A stretch of DNA of 64,000 bases. Source: Phascolarctobacterium sp. Its GTDB lineage: Bacteria > Bacillota > Negativicutes > Acidaminococcales > Acidaminococcaceae. Both the position numbers and the translations under genes were made by a program. Of this stretch, positions 5,114 through 45,804 are shown piece by piece. The notes under the pieces were generated by a model. The model saw only the letters and a program-made list of their open reading frames with translations, had not been told where the DNA came from and ran no database searches. The stretch covers positions 124,001 to 188,000 of the forward strand of contig JAUNOC010000002.1 of NCBI GenBank assembly GCA_030531205.1, read 5' to 3'. The first letter of the stretch is position 1. Every line of letters begins with the position of its first letter.

Positions 5114-5695
5114 ATGAAAATTAAACGTGCATTGGTGTCCGTATCGGATAAGACCGGTGTTGTGGAACTGGCAAAGTTCTTGCATGAAAATGGAGTGGAA
5201 ATTGTTTCCACAGGCGGTACTATGAAAGCCATTAAGGATGCTGGGATTCCTGTAACTTATGTGAGTGATGTGACAGGTTTTCCGGAGATTATGGATGGCA
5301 GGGTAAAGACATTGAATCCTAAAATCCATGGTGCAATTTTAGCAGTTCGTGATAATCCTGAACACATGGCTGCTTTAAAAAAGCATAATATTACTCCTAT
5401 TGATTTGGTAGTAGTAAATCTTTATCCTTTCAAAGAAACTGTGGCAAAACCCGGTGTAACTGAAGCGGAATGTATTGAGAATATTGATATTGGCGGCCCT
5501 GCAATGGTGCGTGCTTCCGCCAAGAATTTCAAGGATGTAATCATTGTAACTTATCCAAGCCGTTATGCAGGACTGATGAAAATGTTGGCAGAAAAGGGCG
5601 ATGTGGATTATGCCACCCGCAGGGAATTGGCTTACGAGGCATTTGCACACACCCATGAGTATGATGGGATGATTGCGGAATACTTGAGAAAATAA
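5114..5695 (+). CDS. purH: IMP cyclohydrolase domain of PurH only (AICAR transformylase domain absent)
   Basis: The 193 residues match only the N-terminal IMP cyclohydrolase (MGS-like) half of bifunctional PurH. They include ALVSVSDKTGVVELAKFL, STGGT, GRVKTLNPKIHGAIL, VVNLYPF and ENIDIGGPAMVRASAKN. Standard PurH is about 510-530 residues; the AICAR formyltransferase part is missing. The next 240 bp hold a repeat element and no remnant of that domain. The frame ends cleanly with TAA at 5693-5695, which is also the start of the repeat array. Either the transformylase is a separate gene elsewhere, as in some Firmicutes, or the 3' part was lost. The ribosome site is a strong GGGGGG stretch. Confidence 0.93.
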   Translation: MKIKRALVSVSDKTGVVELAKFLHENGVEIVSTGGTMKAIKDAGIPVTYVSDVTGFPEIMDGRVKTLNPKIHGAILAVRDNPEHMAALKKHNITPIDLVVVNLYPFKETVAKPGVTEAECIENIDIGGPAMVRASAKNFKDVIIVTYPSRYAGLMKMLAEKGDVDYATRRELAYEAFAHTHEYDGMIAEYLRK

Positions 5696-5925
5696 TGCGA
5701 AATGCGTAATTCGCAATGCGTAATTACGGTAAGATGTTCCTGCGATTATATTGGGGTTTCGGGTGTGCGGGGTTATGCGAACTCTCGTCCGCCCATAAAG
5801 GGGCGGGGGACCGTCTAAAGGAACATAGAAGGATGGTGGTGGGGTGAGCAATTAGGTTGATATAATCAATGGAGCATATTTCCGCAATTTTTAATTTTTC
5901 GTTTTTCATTTTTAATTTCACTTGA
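5693..5925. repeat. composite heptad/core element, locus C (purH-purD gap)
   Basis: This copy shows both ends. The left array, TAATGCG and variants (5693-5725), begins with the purH stop codon. The left core is GTTCCTGCGATTA (5736-5748). The inverted right core, TAATCAATGGAGC, is at 5863-5875. The right array, TTAATTT/TTCATTT-type words (about 5880-5918), ends just before the purD ribosome site. The centre includes CCCATAAAGGGG, AAGGAACATAGAAGG and GGTGGGGTGAGCAATTAGG, also seen at locus G2. Confidence 0.8.
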
Positions 5926-23632: not shown

Positions 23633-24468
23633 TGTCATTGGAAATAGTTGCTTTCGTAGGACCAAGCGGTACGGGTAAAAGCCATCGTGCCATCAGTGTT
23701 GCTTATCAAAACAAATGTGATGGTATTATTGATGACGGACTTTTGATTAAAGGTACTAAGATTTTAGCAGGATTCTCCGCAAAAAACGAGGATAACAAAA
23801 TACAGGCCGTTAAACGGGCAATTTTTGTTGATGATGCTCATGCCAATGAGGTGCGTTTTGCTTTGCAAAATAGTGGTATTAGCCGGCTTTTGGTTATTGC
23901 CACCAGTGACCACATGATTGAGAGAATCCGTGAAAAATTGTCTTTGCCTGTCCCTGTTAAAACAGTTTATATTAACGAAATAGCGACTAAATCAGAGATA
24001 AAACATGCCAAATATTCTCGGATGCAGGAAGGGAAGCATATTGTTCCTGTTCCTTCTGTGGAACTAAAACCCCATTTTACTGGTTATTTTGCAGATTTGC
24101 CGTATAATATCTTTTCTGGTGATAAAAAAGAAGGGCATTTGGATGCCAACTGTTCCATAGTAAGACCAAACTTCAGTTTCTATGGTAAATTACTTATTGC
24201 TGATACGGTGCTACAGGATATTGTGAACATTGTTTTTGAAGATAACCCAGAGATTAAGAAAGTTACGGATATACGTATCCGCCGCCGTAGTGATGGCAAT
24301 AAGGGAATTACAATATTAGTGGAAGTAATCATTTATTATGGTAGCAAGATTAGGGAGGTCATCCGAGATTTTCAAAACAAAATTAAGACCTATGCTGAAT
24401 TCATGACCGGCTTACAAGTTTTGAATGTGAATGTATCGGTAAGAAATTTGGCAATGAGGGAAAATTAG
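23632..24468 (+). CDS. P-loop NTPase fused to an Asp23/Gls24-like domain
   Basis: 278 residues. The N-terminus is a P-loop domain with Walker A GPSGTGKS (residues 10-17) and a likely Walker B at RAIFVDDAH (about 63-71). From about residue 180 to the end the sequence reads as an Asp23/Gls24 domain: GKLLIADTVLQDIV, VEVIIYYG, then MTGLQVLNVNVSVRNL. Asp23 proteins in Gram-positives associate with the membrane or envelope stress. The function of the fusion is unknown; coupling of nucleotide binding to envelope sensing is speculation. The start overlaps the pepA stop (TAATG). The TAG stop lies in the first 7-bp word of locus G. Confidence 0.75.
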   Translation: MSLEIVAFVGPSGTGKSHRAISVAYQNKCDGIIDDGLLIKGTKILAGFSAKNEDNKIQAVKRAIFVDDAHANEVRFALQNSGISRLLVIATSDHMIERIREKLSLPVPVKTVYINEIATKSEIKHAKYSRMQEGKHIVPVPSVELKPHFTGYFADLPYNIFSGDKKEGHLDANCSIVRPNFSFYGKLLIADTVLQDIVNIVFEDNPEIKKVTDIRIRRRSDGNKGITILVEVIIYYGSKIREVIRDFQNKIKTYAEFMTGLQVLNVNVSVRNLAMREN

Positions 24469-24660
24469 GTTTCAGGTGTGAGGTGTCAGGTTAGAGGAAA
24501 AGTTAGCATAAAGCGAACCCCTGCGTCCCCTTGCGAGGGGAAGAGAGCCACGAAGTGGCGAAGGGGTAGTTTGCGTAGCAAGTTGGTATGGTGGGGAATG
24601 AGTAGAAAAGTAGGTTTTGAAAAAATATTTTTTTCGTAACCTACTTTTTGCTTTTTTTTG
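24465..24660. repeat. heptad array plus hairpin-rich payload, locus G1
   Basis: Words ATTAGGT, TTCAGGT and variants (24465-24499) start at the stop of the P-loop/Asp23 gene. The following DNA contains small hairpins, CCCCTTGCGAGGGG (24529-24542) and GCCACGAAGTGGC (24547-24559), and the word GAGTAGAAAAGTAG, also present at locus A. It ends in a terminator. No core is visible. Confidence 0.6.
24609..24660 (+). terminator. probable rho-independent terminator after the dapA-pepA run
   Basis: AGTAGGTT (24609-24616) pairs with AACCTACT (24638-24645); an inner A-rich/T-rich stretch also pairs. A T-rich tail follows. It lies 140 nt after the last gene of the run. Confidence 0.65.
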
Positions 24661-24688
24661 GACTCCTTTTATATATAGAGGGAAAATA

Positions 24689-24963
24689 TAATGCGTAATG
24701 CGTAATTCGCAATGCGTAATTATGGTAGGGATGTTCCTGTGATTAGAATTAGGTTTCAGGTGTGCGGGGTTATGCGAACCCTCGTCCTCCCATAAAGGGG
24801 CAAAAGTAAATGAAAAGTTAAAAATTAAAAATGAAAAATTACGGTAATATGTTCCGTTGATTATAATTGGGAATTTTCGGCTTTGCCGAAAATTGACCAT
24901 AATTTACAACTTTTAATTTATAATTTTTAATTTTGTTATGGGTGGTGGGGTGAGCAATTAGGA
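24689..24963. repeat. composite element with a second element nested inside it, locus G2
   Basis: The outer element has a TAATGCG array (24689-24723), core GTTCCTGTGATTA (24733-24745), and payload ending in CCCATAAAGGGG (24789-24800). The payload resumes at 24935 with GGTGGGGTGAGCAATTAGG, as in uninterrupted locus C. Between lies a complete second unit (about 24805-24934): AAATTAA-type array, core GTTCCGTTGATTA (24851-24863), hairpin AATTTTCGGC-ttt-GCCGAAAATT, and an inverted TTTTAAT-type array. Confidence 0.8.
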
Positions 24964-24974
24964 TGTCGCTAATG

Positions 24975-25272
24975 AAAAGATAAAAACTTAAAACTTAAAG
25001 TTATGGTAAGTTGTTCCTGTGATTAGAATTAGGTTTCAGGAAAGTTGGCATTGAGTGTACCTCCCTCTTTTGAGGGAGGGGGACCGACTCAGTTTTTAAG
25101 TAGTCGGTGGAGGGAGTGATTAGGCGGTGACAATGTTTCTGCGTAATCCGCACCCCCAGTCGCCTTTCCTTGTTCCTTTAGGCGCCAGCCCCCGCAAGGG
25201 CGGGGGCTATTGTACAGTTAGAAGTTGTAAGTTAGAAGTTATAAATTAAAGGTAAATAGTTCCTGTGATTAA
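24975..25272. repeat. further element copies, locus G3/G4
   Basis: AACTTAA words (24986-25003) precede core GTTCCTGTGATTA (25013-25025). The centre carries CCCTCTTTTGAGGG (25064-25077) and a GC-rich hairpin AGCCCCCGC-AAG-GCGGGGGCT (about 25187-25208). A new array of GTTAGAA/GTTATAA words (25217-25249) and a core (25259-25271) follow. Confidence 0.72.
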
Positions 25273-25290
25273 TCTTCATTCCTTTGTCGC

Positions 25291-25430
25291 AGGCAGGGAA
25301 ATACCTGAATTTTCTGAGGGAAATTCAGGTATTTCCCCAGTTTAGAATTTTACCGGACTTTTTCTCTTTGTTGTTGCAAGTCGGGAAATTGGGTAATTAT
25401 CCAAGGGAAATTACCCAATTTCCCTGTTTT
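25291..25430 (+). repeat. tandem pair of perfect hairpins with different stems
   Basis: Hairpin 1: arms 25296-25312 and 25321-25337, 17 bp perfect, 8-nt loop. Hairpin 2: arms 25383-25398 and 25409-25424, 16 bp perfect, 10-nt loop, followed by a T-rich tail. Both stems start GGGAAAT and end ATTTCCC. Both loops lead into AGGGAAATT, and both are preceded by similar TGT(C/T)GCA(G/A)G sequence, yet their inner arms differ with both sides changed together. They look like duplicated structures kept by selection. There is no convincing reading frame. Confidence 0.75.
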
Positions 25431-25486
25431 TATTTTTGCTTCGCTTTTAACTCATCGTTGAAAAGTATTTAGAACAGCAAAATCTC

Positions 25487-25535
25487 AATTTCAAAATGGC
25501 GACATTTTGATATAAAATGTCGCCATTTTGAAATT
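25487..25535. repeat. perfect 22-bp inverted repeat
   Basis: Arms 25487-25508 and 25514-25535 are exact reverse complements around the 5-nt spacer GATAT. The stem includes TGGCGACATTTT. No T run follows directly, so it is not an ordinary terminator. It is in gene-free DNA between the dap/pepA run and the minus-strand hydF group. Confidence 0.85.
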
Positions 25536-25589
25536 AACTTTTCACGATTTTTTCAGTTTTGAATGAGAGAATTTTTTTTGAAATGATTT

Positions 25590-25845
25590 GATAAGTTAAA
25601 AGCGAAAAACTTAAAACTTAAAGTTTGGGAATGCTTCGCATAATGCAAAAACACCCGTCTGCCCCTGTGTTCCTGTGGGCAGCCACCCTCTTTAGAAAGA
25701 GGGAAAAAAGTTCGCATAGTGTGGAGTTTTCCCCACACCCTTTTATTCCCTCTCCCCAAGGATAGGGTCAGTTCGCATTATGCGGACTTTTTTATTTTAA
25801 TCAATGGAACATATTACCATCATTTCTAATTTCTAATTACTTCAA
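25590..25845. repeat. composite element, locus H
   Basis: AACTTAA words (about 25603-25625) form the left edge. The centre has CCCTCTTTAGAAAGAGGG (25688-25705) and a terminator-like GTTCGCAT-TATGCGGAC hairpin with T run (25770-25795). The inverted core TAATCAATGGAAC is at 25798-25810. The right array, TTTCTAA-type (25822-25839), reaches the stop codon of the minus-strand gene at 25837. Confidence 0.7.
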
Positions 25846-26196
25846 CGGTGTATTTAAAGAATCTGCCTGCTCGAAGATGAAAGCAGGGGATGGATAGACG
25901 AAAAGGCAATACTGAAAATCCGTGGTTTCTGTGGCAAAACGTTTGCGCAAGCAGAAATCTGTCTTTTCTTCAAAATCAATTAAATTGTCTTTATTAATGT
26001 CCGCATCCCTTACAAGAACCAAGAGATAAGGTTTTGCTTCCGGGGCATCTTCCGGCAGTTGGTTTCTGTCCGTTGGGAGCACGGGCATAATTTGTAAATC
26101 GCCAATGGGCTGGTCGTTTTCATTCAATAGACGAGCCCGATAAACATTATCGTATAATGTTCTTGCTAATTTAACGGAATACGCTTGTTTACTCAT
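25837..26196 (-). CDS. small hypothetical protein with an EF-hand-like loop
   Basis: 119 residues, family not recognised. The stretch RDADINKDNLIDFEEKTDF (about 64-82) fits an EF-hand loop with ligand positions D-x-N-x-D-N-x-I-D-x-x-E, so calcium binding is possible. Only one such loop is seen. There is no signal peptide or membrane segment, so a cytosolic protein is likely. GAGGTG lies 7 bp before the ATG at 26196. The TAA stop (25837-25839) is inside the terminal 7-bp array of locus H. It follows hydF on the same strand. Confidence 0.7.
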   Translation of the reverse strand: MSKQAYSVKLARTLYDNVYRARLLNENDQPIGDLQIMPVLPTDRNQLPEDAPEAKPYLLVLVRDADINKDNLIDFEEKTDFCLRKRFATETTDFQYCLFVYPSPAFIFEQADSLNTPLK

Positions 26197-26261
26197 TTTT
26201 TCACCTCATAAAATATTTTTATTTATTTTAGCATAAAGAAATGTATTTATCAATAAAATTT

Positions 26262-26410
26262 AGTTTCAGGTGTCAGGTTCAGGGTAAAGGAATTAGGGAA
26301 ATAAAAGGCGTAAAGCGTAGGGCGTAAGGCATAGGGATGGCAATATGTTCCTGTGATTAAAACATAATCAACGGAACATCATACCACAATTACTCATTAC
26401 TAATTACTCA
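26262..26410. repeat. minimal composite element, locus I (hydF downstream gap)
   Basis: The clearest small copy. Core GTTCCTGTGATTA (26347-26359) and inverted core TAATCAACGGAAC (26365-26377) are only 5 bp apart. On the left are arrays of GGTGTCA-type (26268-26288) and GGCGTAA-type (26308-26336) words. On the right a TTACTCA/TTACTAA array reaches the hydF stop codon (26404-26406). Confidence 0.82.
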
Positions 26411-27585
26411 TTCAAAAAAATTTCCGTTGCTCTTTTTAATATGCCTTTCATTTTGGCAATTACAATGCCGTAGTTTGTGAAAGCTATGTCACAATTCTTT
26501 GTTTTGTTAAGGCGGTTTTGCATCTCTTTTTCCGTCAGCATACAACCGCCACAATGAATTATTAGTTTATATTTTGATAAATCTTCTGGGAAGTCGTTGC
26601 CGGCGGTAAAGGTAAATTTAGGATTTGCCTTTGTGTATTTTTTAATCCAGTTAGGAATTTTTTCCGTGCCAATGTCCCCACATTGGCGATGGTGGGTACA
26701 ACCTTCGCCGATTAAGATTTCTTCATTGTCTTGAATACTATCCAAAACATTTACCCCAGCAATGGCACCATCCAAGTTGCCTTTGTAGCGGGCAAAGAGA
26801 ATGGAAAAACTGGTTAAAGGTATTTTGGGGGGTAAAATTGTATTGACTTCTTCAAATACTTGGCTGTCTGTAATTACCAGTCGGGGAGAAGATTTAAGGT
26901 TAGAAAGGGTATCTGCCAATTCTTCGGGCTGTGTTACTATAGCAATGCCCTTGTAATCAAGAATATCCCGCAAAACCTGTTGTTGTGGCAAAATCAACCG
27001 GCCTTTGGGGGCGGATAAGTCAATGGGAGTTACTAAAATAATGATATCTTTAGGATTGAATAAGTCATGTACTAAGGGGTTGATATTTTTTTTCGGTTTT
27101 AATTTTCCCAAGAGGTTTTTCAGTTCTTCAATATTTTCCATAGTTTTACAAGAAACAGAAATAGTTGGGAAATCAAAAGCGGGAATAGAGCGGTTGCCCT
27201 TATCTGATTTATTAAATATAACCACACAAGTAATACCTTGTTGTTTGATTTTTTTTAAGAGTTCTGCTTCTGCACTGCTCCAACCCTGAGCAGCATCCAC
27301 AACAATAAGAGCAATATCAGTTGTAGTTAAAACATCATACGCCCGCTTAATTCTTTCTTTTCCAAGTTCTCCCATATCATCAAGACCGGGTGTATCAGTC
27401 AGCATAATGGGGCCCAAAGGAAAAAGTTCCATTGCTTTTTTTACCGGGTCCGTAGTGGTCCCCGCAATAGAACTTGTAATAGCCAAATTTTGTCCTGTAA
27501 GAGCGTTGATTAAACTTGATTTTCCAGTATTAGTTTTGCCAAAAATGCCGATTTGAATTCTTTCGGCATTGGGGGTGCTTTGCAT
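26404..27585 (-). CDS. hydF: [FeFe]-hydrogenase maturation GTPase HydF
   Basis: HydF is the scaffold/GTPase that assembles the H-cluster with HydE and HydG. N-terminal GTPase: GKTNTGKSS (P-loop), TTTDP, DTPGLDD and NKSD. The C-terminal Fe-S binding region has the conserved CTHHRQ and, about 50 residues later, HCGGC, matching the CxH...HCxxC signature. 393 residues, normal. No hydE, hydG or hydrogenase genes are in the window. The ATG follows directly on nicotinate phosphoribosyltransferase (1-bp overlap). The last codons and TAA stop fall in a 7-bp repeat array. Confidence 0.95.
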   Translation of the reverse strand: MQSTPNAERIQIGIFGKTNTGKSSLINALTGQNLAITSSIAGTTTDPVKKAMELFPLGPIMLTDTPGLDDMGELGKERIKRAYDVLTTTDIALIVVDAAQGWSSAEAELLKKIKQQGITCVVIFNKSDKGNRSIPAFDFPTISVSCKTMENIEELKNLLGKLKPKKNINPLVHDLFNPKDIIILVTPIDLSAPKGRLILPQQQVLRDILDYKGIAIVTQPEELADTLSNLKSSPRLVITDSQVFEEVNTILPPKIPLTSFSILFARYKGNLDGAIAGVNVLDSIQDNEEILIGEGCTHHRQCGDIGTEKIPNWIKKYTKANPKFTFTAGNDFPEDLSKYKLIIHCGGCMLTEKEMQNRLNKTKNCDIAFTNYGIVIAKMKGILKRATEIFLNE

Positions 27586-44679: not shown

Positions 44680-45364
44680 AGTCCTCTTCTTCCAATTCTT
44701 CCTGCATAGCATTCTTTATCATTTCTCCCCGTATTTCAAGATAATGTTTCTTTTGCAGGGAGTTTTTTATTGTGGTTATGAATTTGTTAAAATCAGCACC
44801 TTTATATTTTTCGTAGAGCAGTTTCAAAAGTTCTTCGTTAAACCACTCCGGCACAGTGAATTGCATATTCTGTGTCAAAAAACAGAGTGCCATTTGTGGG
44901 CTTGGCTCCACCGTGTCGCCGTTGTGCAAAAAGAGTTCCTGGGTTTCGTTACGCAAAAGCTCAAGGACGTACTGCACCCTTGTTTTGGCATCAAGATTGG
45001 CGGCGGTCATAGTGTTATGGAAATTATCCAGCATAAGTTTTTCATCCGCCGGCACATCTTCATAATTCCGTTCTAAAACTTCAATTTCCAATTCTTTTAA
45101 CTTTCTCCAGGCACGCTTTAAGTCCTTATCCGTCCAACGGTAACGGAGATTCAGGATTTGGTGGAGAATACCGTTGATATGGATAATGTCAATGCGTTGC
45201 AGTTTCAGACCTTTAGTGGTCTGCATACGGCTGATAAACTTTGCCACCGCATCCTTTAATTTTCGGCGTTTGCGGAAACGCTTGTGGTGTTCCTTGTCAT
45301 ATTCTCTTTTCTTGGCTAATTCTTCTTCTTCTTTATTTTTTTTTACTTCTGAATTATCTTGCAT
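44678..45364 (-). CDS. orphan highly charged protein, copy 2 (complete)
   Basis: 228 residues, a complete paralogue of the partial gene at the left edge and in the same orientation. The family is not recognised. The variable N-terminus is rich in Glu/Lys; residues 25-40 are strongly basic (HHKRFRKRRKLKD). The centre has LDNFHNTMTAANLDAKTR and the end is acidic (EELEEED). The predicted structure is mostly helical, without signal or membrane segments. Two near-identical single-gene units with their own promoter and terminator suggest a multi-copy accessory family. Confidence 0.85.
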   Translation of the reverse strand: MQDNSEVKKNKEEEELAKKREYDKEHHKRFRKRRKLKDAVAKFISRMQTTKGLKLQRIDIIHINGILHQILNLRYRWTDKDLKRAWRKLKELEIEVLERNYEDVPADEKLMLDNFHNTMTAANLDAKTRVQYVLELLRNETQELFLHNGDTVEPSPQMALCFLTQNMQFTVPEWFNEELLKLLYEKYKGADFNKFITTIKNSLQKKHYLEIRGEMIKNAMQEELEEED

Positions 45365-45395: not shown

Positions 45396-45471
45396 GTGTT
45401 TTTGACGTCATATTTGAAATTATGACGTCAAAAACACCATTTATTTTATAGAATTTTTGTTTTGAAGTCAA
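45396..45471 (-). promoter_or_regulatory. promoter and 17-bp palindrome upstream of orphan gene copy 2
   Basis: On the minus strand TTGACT (45466-45471) and TAAAAT (45443-45448) are 17 bp apart. The expected start, near 45436, coincides with the edge of a perfect inverted repeat with arms 45396-45412 and 45421-45437 and an 8-nt centre, containing TGACGTCA in each arm. The promoter matches that of copy 1, but the palindrome does not. Confidence 0.7.
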
Positions 45472-45479
45472 GGATTTCA

Positions 45480-45804
45480 ATGAATACAGATAATTTTTTA
45501 GGAGGTAAAATTAAGGGATGTTAAAAAAATTACACGGAAAAATAAGGTAGTTTCTTAAAGATTTTAATTTTGAGGAAAATTTTTGTGAAAATTTTCTGAT
45601 GTACATATTTTTGCATATAAAGAGATGTGTAATATATGCATTTGGAAGAAAATGGGGAAGTGTTAGTAAAATCTTCTTTGAAATATAGACGCTTTAGGAA
45701 CACTTCGTCAAACCCATATTAATGCTTTTGAAATAATTTTATAATAGTGCCGAAAAGCGTGTAAAAAATAACACCCTCGCTCTAATTGGGGAGGATGTTG
45801 TTTT
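45480..45804. other. gene-free stretch downstream of the radical SAM gene
   Basis: AT-rich, no reading frame worth calling. The first 25 bp (up to about 45505) are conserved with the region upstream of copy 1 at 1-685. An imperfect hairpin with T run on the minus strand (about 45760-45803) is the likely terminator for the radical SAM gene. Nothing else is recognised. Confidence 0.5.

Follow-up and report, generated by a model that had tools for sequence, protein, structure and literature searches.

A repeat unit with its own core and hairpin in the hairpin slot of a second repeat in a Phascolarctobacterium genome

The window, that is, the whole stretch of 64,000 nucleotides that was analysed, corresponds to C10:124001-188000, on one contig of a draft genome of Phascolarctobacterium sp. 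that comprises 1.33 Mb in 15 contigs. Between positions 24689 and 24963 it carries a nest of two repeat units, in which a smaller unit with heptad arrays, a core and a hairpin of its own stands inside the payload of a larger one. The parts of the nest and an ordinary copy of the outer unit (locus C) are the following, in window coordinates.

24689..24723, + strand: left array of the outer unit, five heptads (TAATGCG, TAATGCG, TAATTCG, CAATGCG, TAATTAT), letters read directly
24724..24745, + strand: core of the outer unit, with one extra base relative to GGTAAnnnGTTCCnGTGATTA
24746..24801, + strand: left payload part of the outer unit, ending in CCCATAAAGGGGC, delimited by the left side of the 23 outer copies of this genome
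24802..24940, + strand: inner unit and junction bases, standing where 16 of the 21 other outer copies of this genome have 27-32 nt
24843..24863, + strand: core of the inner unit
24872..24894, + strand: central hairpin of the inner unit, AATTTTCGGC TTT GCCGAAAATT
24895..24940, + strand: right arm of the inner unit (an inverted heptad array) and the junction GTTATG
24941..24963, + strand: right payload part of the outer unit, GGTGGTGGGGTGAGCAATTAGG
5693..5920, + strand: locus C, an outer unit with the ordinary small hairpin in its slot and an inverted core and array on the right

A preliminary description of this DNA had the outer sequence run to 24800 and resume at about 24937, matching the uninterrupted payload of locus C. 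The continuity is confirmed and both sides align, the exact limits being 24801, where the outer payload stops, and 24941, where it restarts, with 139 nt between them (as judged against locus C and a further 20 copies of this genome that are not nested). The match to locus C is nevertheless incomplete, as its payload contains approximately 30 nt (GGGGGACCGTCTAAAGGAACATAGAA...) that are missing from the nested copy. Counted as a slot, the nested position holds 140 nt, the first C being common with ordinary copies, against about 30 nt in an ordinary slot. The intervening sequence is indeed a complete smaller unit, with array, core, hairpin and inverted array. No target-site duplication, which had been suggested as a check, was seen at the aligned nest junctions, where the longest common direct string is GGGG. 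The junctions also hold a 7-nt inverted match (CCCATAA/TTATGGG) that gives weak support for a hairpin-guided event, because 921 of 20000 shuffles equal it. The outer core shows four mismatches in an ungapped scan owing to its extra base.

Two other features of the window were recorded in passing. An open frame of 142 aa runs through the repeats on the minus strand (24472-24900); it had no match in NCBIfam and Pfam at an E value of 0.01 and is probably spurious. Besides, positions 1-300 and 44704-45003 are 85% identical, and positions 753-836 and 45430-45513 are 82% identical, paired stretches whose similarity suggests a duplicated gene region.

The hairpin position of the outer unit differs in content from copy to copy, with pairing kept. 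Outer copies with both sides of this slot number 23 in the genome under study, to which six were added from 12 stretches of a sister genome (G001). The inner unit occupies the slot in two of the 23, and other contents occupy it in the remaining 21 and in all six scored G001 copies. Among the 21 non-nested copies, the slot measures 27-32 nt in 16, mostly as a small hairpin, and 77-81 nt in five, which have an extra module of about 50 nt; in G001 it ranges from 15 to 96 nt. An empty slot was seen in none of the 23 and six copies. The preliminary description had allowed for the inner hairpin turning out to be a regular part of the outer element when many copies were aligned, and the counts speak against it. 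A regular part lost by most copies would explain why the nest is found at two loci, but is barely credible given these other slot contents and a unit that is common outside the outer element.

The small hairpin opens with ACC and is closed by GGT in 25 of the 27 non-nested copies, the exceptions being C8:42529, which has CCAAAAAGC..GCTTTTTGG instead, and the degenerate C13:29317. The letters beside ACC and GGT vary between copies and pair within a copy, with a mean of 3.12 of 4 against 2.28 after permutation (reached by 0 of 5000); this test covers 25 of the 29 rows, the two nested ones included, four having been dropped with no usable stem under the ACC rule. With each of the 12 distinct stems counted once, the observed mean is 2.92 and the permuted one 1.95 (0 of 5000). 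A larger collection, defined by the loop TAAAGGAACATAGAA and comprising 54 matches, a few of them due to chance, shows the same pattern: pairing is 5.17 of 6 against 3.66, the top permutation mean being 4.26.

The inner unit, for its part, is an independent repeat that is found elsewhere without the outer unit. The stretches of the genome examined for it amount to 225,150 bases; they number 86, the window among them, and the majority were picked for element or core matches. With at most one mismatch, the inner central hairpin occurs at 15 places in these bases, 13 of them outside outer payloads and two nested, and a core is recognisable at 12 of the 15. The copy at C13:93071 directly adjoins the end of an outer payload without lying within it, and the one at C10:36669, which lies within a different payload, no longer has a core. 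In the sister species G002, a copy aligns over 126 columns (AAAAGTAAAT to AATTTT) at 87% identity; its flanks differ and the similarity ends on both sides, so that the inner unit spans at least 24802-24927, the last 13 bases before 24941 being assignable either to the unit or to the junction. A second G002 copy, truncated by a contig end, is 89% identical over 65 nt. The outer payload has 17 matches in G001 and none in G002. The limits of standalone inner units are blurred by their arrays. The two arrays of the nested copy had been described as inverted copies of one word class, which holds for that copy; over the 12 core-bearing hairpin units, both nested copies included, the match between arms is moderate (43 of 2000 permutations reach the value), and in 32 convergent core pairs it is absent (1932 of 2000).

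Both units of the nest belong to one modular family, whose core measures 21 bp. When 380 genomes of the class are compared, this core rises above background only in this genus. The pattern GGTAAnnnGTTCCnGTGATTA, with at most two mismatches, has 253 matches in the genome of 1.33 Mb, against none for a reversed-pattern control; the three genomes of the genus have 253, 25 and 9, and elsewhere in the class there are 0 to 4 (0 to 5 for the reversed control), any match at all being present in 82 of the 380 genomes. The exact core pattern had no match in viral contigs, nor did the 275-nt nest region in plasmids and phages. Searches of an open-access library yielded nothing on these elements, and a name for the family may exist beyond that scope.

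At up to four mismatches, the examined stretches contain 199 cores, against 10 for the control. The arrays upstream of the cores are heptameric: in the upstream 42-mers of 169 cores, identity is 59% at a shift of 7 and 56% at a shift of 14, compared with 34% and 32% once the letters are shuffled. Of the pairs of neighbouring cores that lie within 600 nt, 37 are ++, 32 are +-, 14 are -- and 4 are -+. Opposite neighbours thus mostly point inward (32 convergent against 4 divergent), as in the inverted doublets of REPINs, and the 51 same-direction neighbours represent another arrangement too. The core itself is no palindrome, since 2 and 4 of its 21 positions equal the reverse complement in the two common versions, and no fold is predicted for it. 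Module maps reveal the same parts in an order that varies from copy to copy, as in a mosaic. At window 26339-26385, two cores face each other across a 5-nt spacer (core-AAACA-core'), a pair that may represent the family's basic unit.

The nest is present a second time, at about 19.7 kb of contig C8, with two mismatches in 194 nt and none within the 139 nt. The sequence beside the common 194 nt differs between the two loci: on the left of the C8 nest, another heptad array takes the place of the outer array and core, and the right-hand tails belong to two classes, both of which are present in other copies. The existence of two near-identical nests argues that the composite was copied after it had formed. 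The order of events given in the preliminary description, with the outer unit first and the inner one entering it, fits the copies, and by sequence comparison the copying of the composite would follow as a third step.

A comparison with close strains had also been suggested. Searches gave two other genomes of the genus; one has the upstream flanking protein at 66% identity, and in the second this protein was not found. The best stand-in within the genome is the pair formed by the nested C8 locus (L002) and a non-nested locus at C2:60.6 kb (L004). To the left of the slot 223 of 251 aligned positions are identical, and to the right 344 of 391, gaps being uncounted on both sides. The two loci also differ beyond the slot, as the outer array and core are missing from L002 and there are further indels.

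Contig C7 ends and contig C12 begins inside outer copies, so the repeats probably limit the assembly. In a draft of 15 contigs with such breaks, the nest might itself be an artefact of joining repeats. However, apart from the second nest, matches in this genome to the inner unit of at least 100 nt are at most 85% identical, and identities of at least 93% belong to shorter pieces (40 of 200 candidates scored). As the long matches stay at or below 85%, another assembled copy does not seem to be the source of the nest; and the nest is carried by two loci whose sequence beside the shared 194 nt is different, which makes an artefact very improbable.

Paired changes like those of the slot are also seen downstream. 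Two hairpins of 42 nt lie 3' of the nest, at window 25296-25337 and 25383-25424. The latter exists in eight copies (seven distinct) and two stem classes, which are set apart by three pairs, both members of each being altered; one-sided intermediates between the classes are absent from the seven distinct versions. Of the cells of its helix 98.5% are paired and 11 carry a double change, a number that averages 4.5 in shuffles (0 of 500 reach it) and does not exceed one in slid structures. Two of the five covariation measures lie near the shuffled values: a double change is seen at 5 pairs (3.2 in shuffles, 18 of 500), and the number of pair types is 7 (6.7 in shuffles, 331 of 500). Both stem classes occur with both flank types in the six of eight copies that have a comparable left flank, and the window copy and the one at C10:97708 differ in 2 of 60 flank bases and belong to different stem classes.

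A palindrome follows at window 25487-25535 (AAAATGGCGACATTTT-GATAT-AAAATGTCGCCATTTT). In five copies with same-side flanks, its spacer reads GATAT in two and ATATC in three, and is therefore inverted. Inversion of a spacer is named as an outcome of template switching in the portion of PMC8604942 that deals with it, and template switching is described in part of PMC8794818 as a process that makes or mends hairpins, both stem arms being rewritten together. Jointly changed arms and an inverted spacer are perhaps a fit to such a process; the classes would also spread if copies with common flanks exchanged sequence.

The enzymes that could move these repeats were sought through four families, PF01797 (Y1 transposase, RAYT), PF00078 (reverse transcriptase), PF01609 and PF00665 (rve). 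Neither PF01797 nor PF00078 had a match in this genome or in G001, each having one in G002, and PF01609 had none in this genome. The PF00665 search pointed, below its cut-off, to a sole gene, an intact IS30 transposase of 341 aa (NF033563, 268.8 bits).

C10:74.3-75.3 kb (L149:1273-2298), minus strand: IS30 transposase gene

This gene appears to split a copy of the palindrome that is unsplit elsewhere, including at window 25487-25535. As a mover of the repeats it is not supported by its ends, which were chosen by eye: they score no higher than 7 with the core and with the ends of the inner unit, and 13 with each other.

These results bear on a clean transposition, by which a MITE-like unit would have jumped into the outer payload and the resident hairpin would have been deleted later. 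Such an event would account for unit ends that are shared with the sister-species copy, for an inner hairpin that lies outside outer payloads at 13 of its 15 places, and for opposite neighbouring cores that mostly face inward, like terminal inverted repeats. It is nonetheless unlikely, with about 30 nt gone at the site, no target duplication seen there, PF01797, PF00078 and PF01609 unmatched in the genome and the IS30 ends different. The mobility claimed in the preliminary description therefore survives in part: blocks have moved and the inner unit is independent, but a clean insertion is not supported, the unit standing in place of other slot contents, and the nest taken alone is no demonstration of transposition.

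The folding and orientation of the repeats concern another explanation, namely that they encode a structured RNA with selected hairpin positions, in which selection maintains the pairing and tolerates the inner unit as a long variant. None of 200 dinucleotide shuffles folds as well as the inner unit (z = -3.4 for RNA, -4.4 for DNA). The nested composite is less clear than the inner unit alone (z -2.8, with 2 of 200 as good), and the outer unit of locus C folds no better than shuffles (z -0.9, 34 shuffles as good). Single cores lie on the G-rich strand of the examined contig sequence in 107 of 122 cases, summed over contigs, a count that is confounded with gene direction, since of the 77 single cores flanked by co-directional genes 68 point the same way as those genes. 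Among 42 single cores whose flanking genes differ in direction, or for which one flanking gene is unknown, 36 nevertheless agree with the local GC skew, and core orientation is possibly tied to replication.

An RNA would be in keeping with the covariation of stems between copies and with the 68 co-directional cores, but not with the 36 that follow skew independently of gene direction, nor with the poor fold of the outer unit at locus C. Near-identical flanks with different stem classes and no one-sided intermediates seen are also at odds with it, as is Rfam, which at gathering score gave only a tRNA in the window. At E values up to 0.1, the region 24400-26450 had 17 Rfam matches, all under the gathering score, all touching 25388-25551 and none on the nest. 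A structured RNA is thus considered decidedly unlikely.

The preferred reading, held at a probability of roughly 0.57, is that the nest arose when an independent unit replaced the slot hairpin, the composite then being copied, within a modular family resembling REPINs and MITEs. The inner unit, with its heptad array, 21-bp core, hairpin and inverted array, would have taken over the hairpin slot of the outer unit and ousted a resident of about 30 nt, presumably the small hairpin of ordinary copies. This replacement would have happened a single time, and segmental duplication or gene conversion would have carried the composite to the second locus, a direction that is presumed like the single origin itself. 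The family as a whole may be a non-autonomous population of the REPIN/MITE type, whose modules a putative enzyme, supposedly a transposase, would originally have spread to intergenic sites. Recombination would then have reshuffled the modules, perhaps together with replication errors at hairpins (template switching), the stems staying paired. Against this replacement reading, the paired stem classes could reflect selection on RNA, or ordinary homologous exchange without template switching.

A broader proposition, which is rather unlikely, sees the hairpin positions as cassette slots in which both arms are exchanged between dispersed copies or replaced by a mobile unit, in a strand-oriented fashion tied to replication and without a known transposase. 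If this were true, the nest would be a mobile unit making use of such a slot. With more than 250 core matches, heptad arrays and co-varying hairpins, this small genome is a natural setting in which to test the rewriting of paired stems, and likewise the continued spread of intergenic repeats for which no transposase is evident. The nested pair orders events within the family.

Among known systems, REPINs and REP sequences with their RAYT resemble the present family in having hundreds of short intergenic copies, in forming inverted doublets that would fold into hairpins, as well as singlets and clusters, and in the confinement of some families to one species, according to the relevant parts of PMC3116915 and PMC3733652. 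Unlike those described there, the repeats studied here come without a Y1 transposase match in the genome and have a core that is not palindromic, heptad arrays outside the core, and inter-core payloads that can reach several hundred bases. The IS30 family (NF033563) is linked to the repeats through the gene of this genome that appears to lie within their associated palindrome, its ends being unlike the core or the inner unit.

The P6b region of the Nostoc trnL intron offers another parallel: in the sections of PMC4476775 concerned with it, its stem arms consist of degenerate 7-nt repeats of different classes, whole regions change class with the structure kept, and side stem-loops are inserted at one position. 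P6b is, however, a single locus in a cyanobacterial group I intron, whereas the present repeats are scattered between genes in hundreds of copies, share a conserved 21-bp core and belong to another lineage. The TAACTGA heptamer arrays of Beggiatoaceae are likewise abundant intergenic direct repeats of 7 nt whose mechanism of spread is not evident; they are made of a single word, and the portions of PMC4679880 that describe them mention no core or hairpin modules.

A parallel to the stems themselves is offered by template-switch mutations, in which both arms change in one step and a spacer between inverted repeats is inverted, as reported in parts of PMC8794818 and PMC8604942. The mutations treated there sit in genes, while in the present family the other stem class already exists in other copies, and for this reason exchange between copies may be enough.
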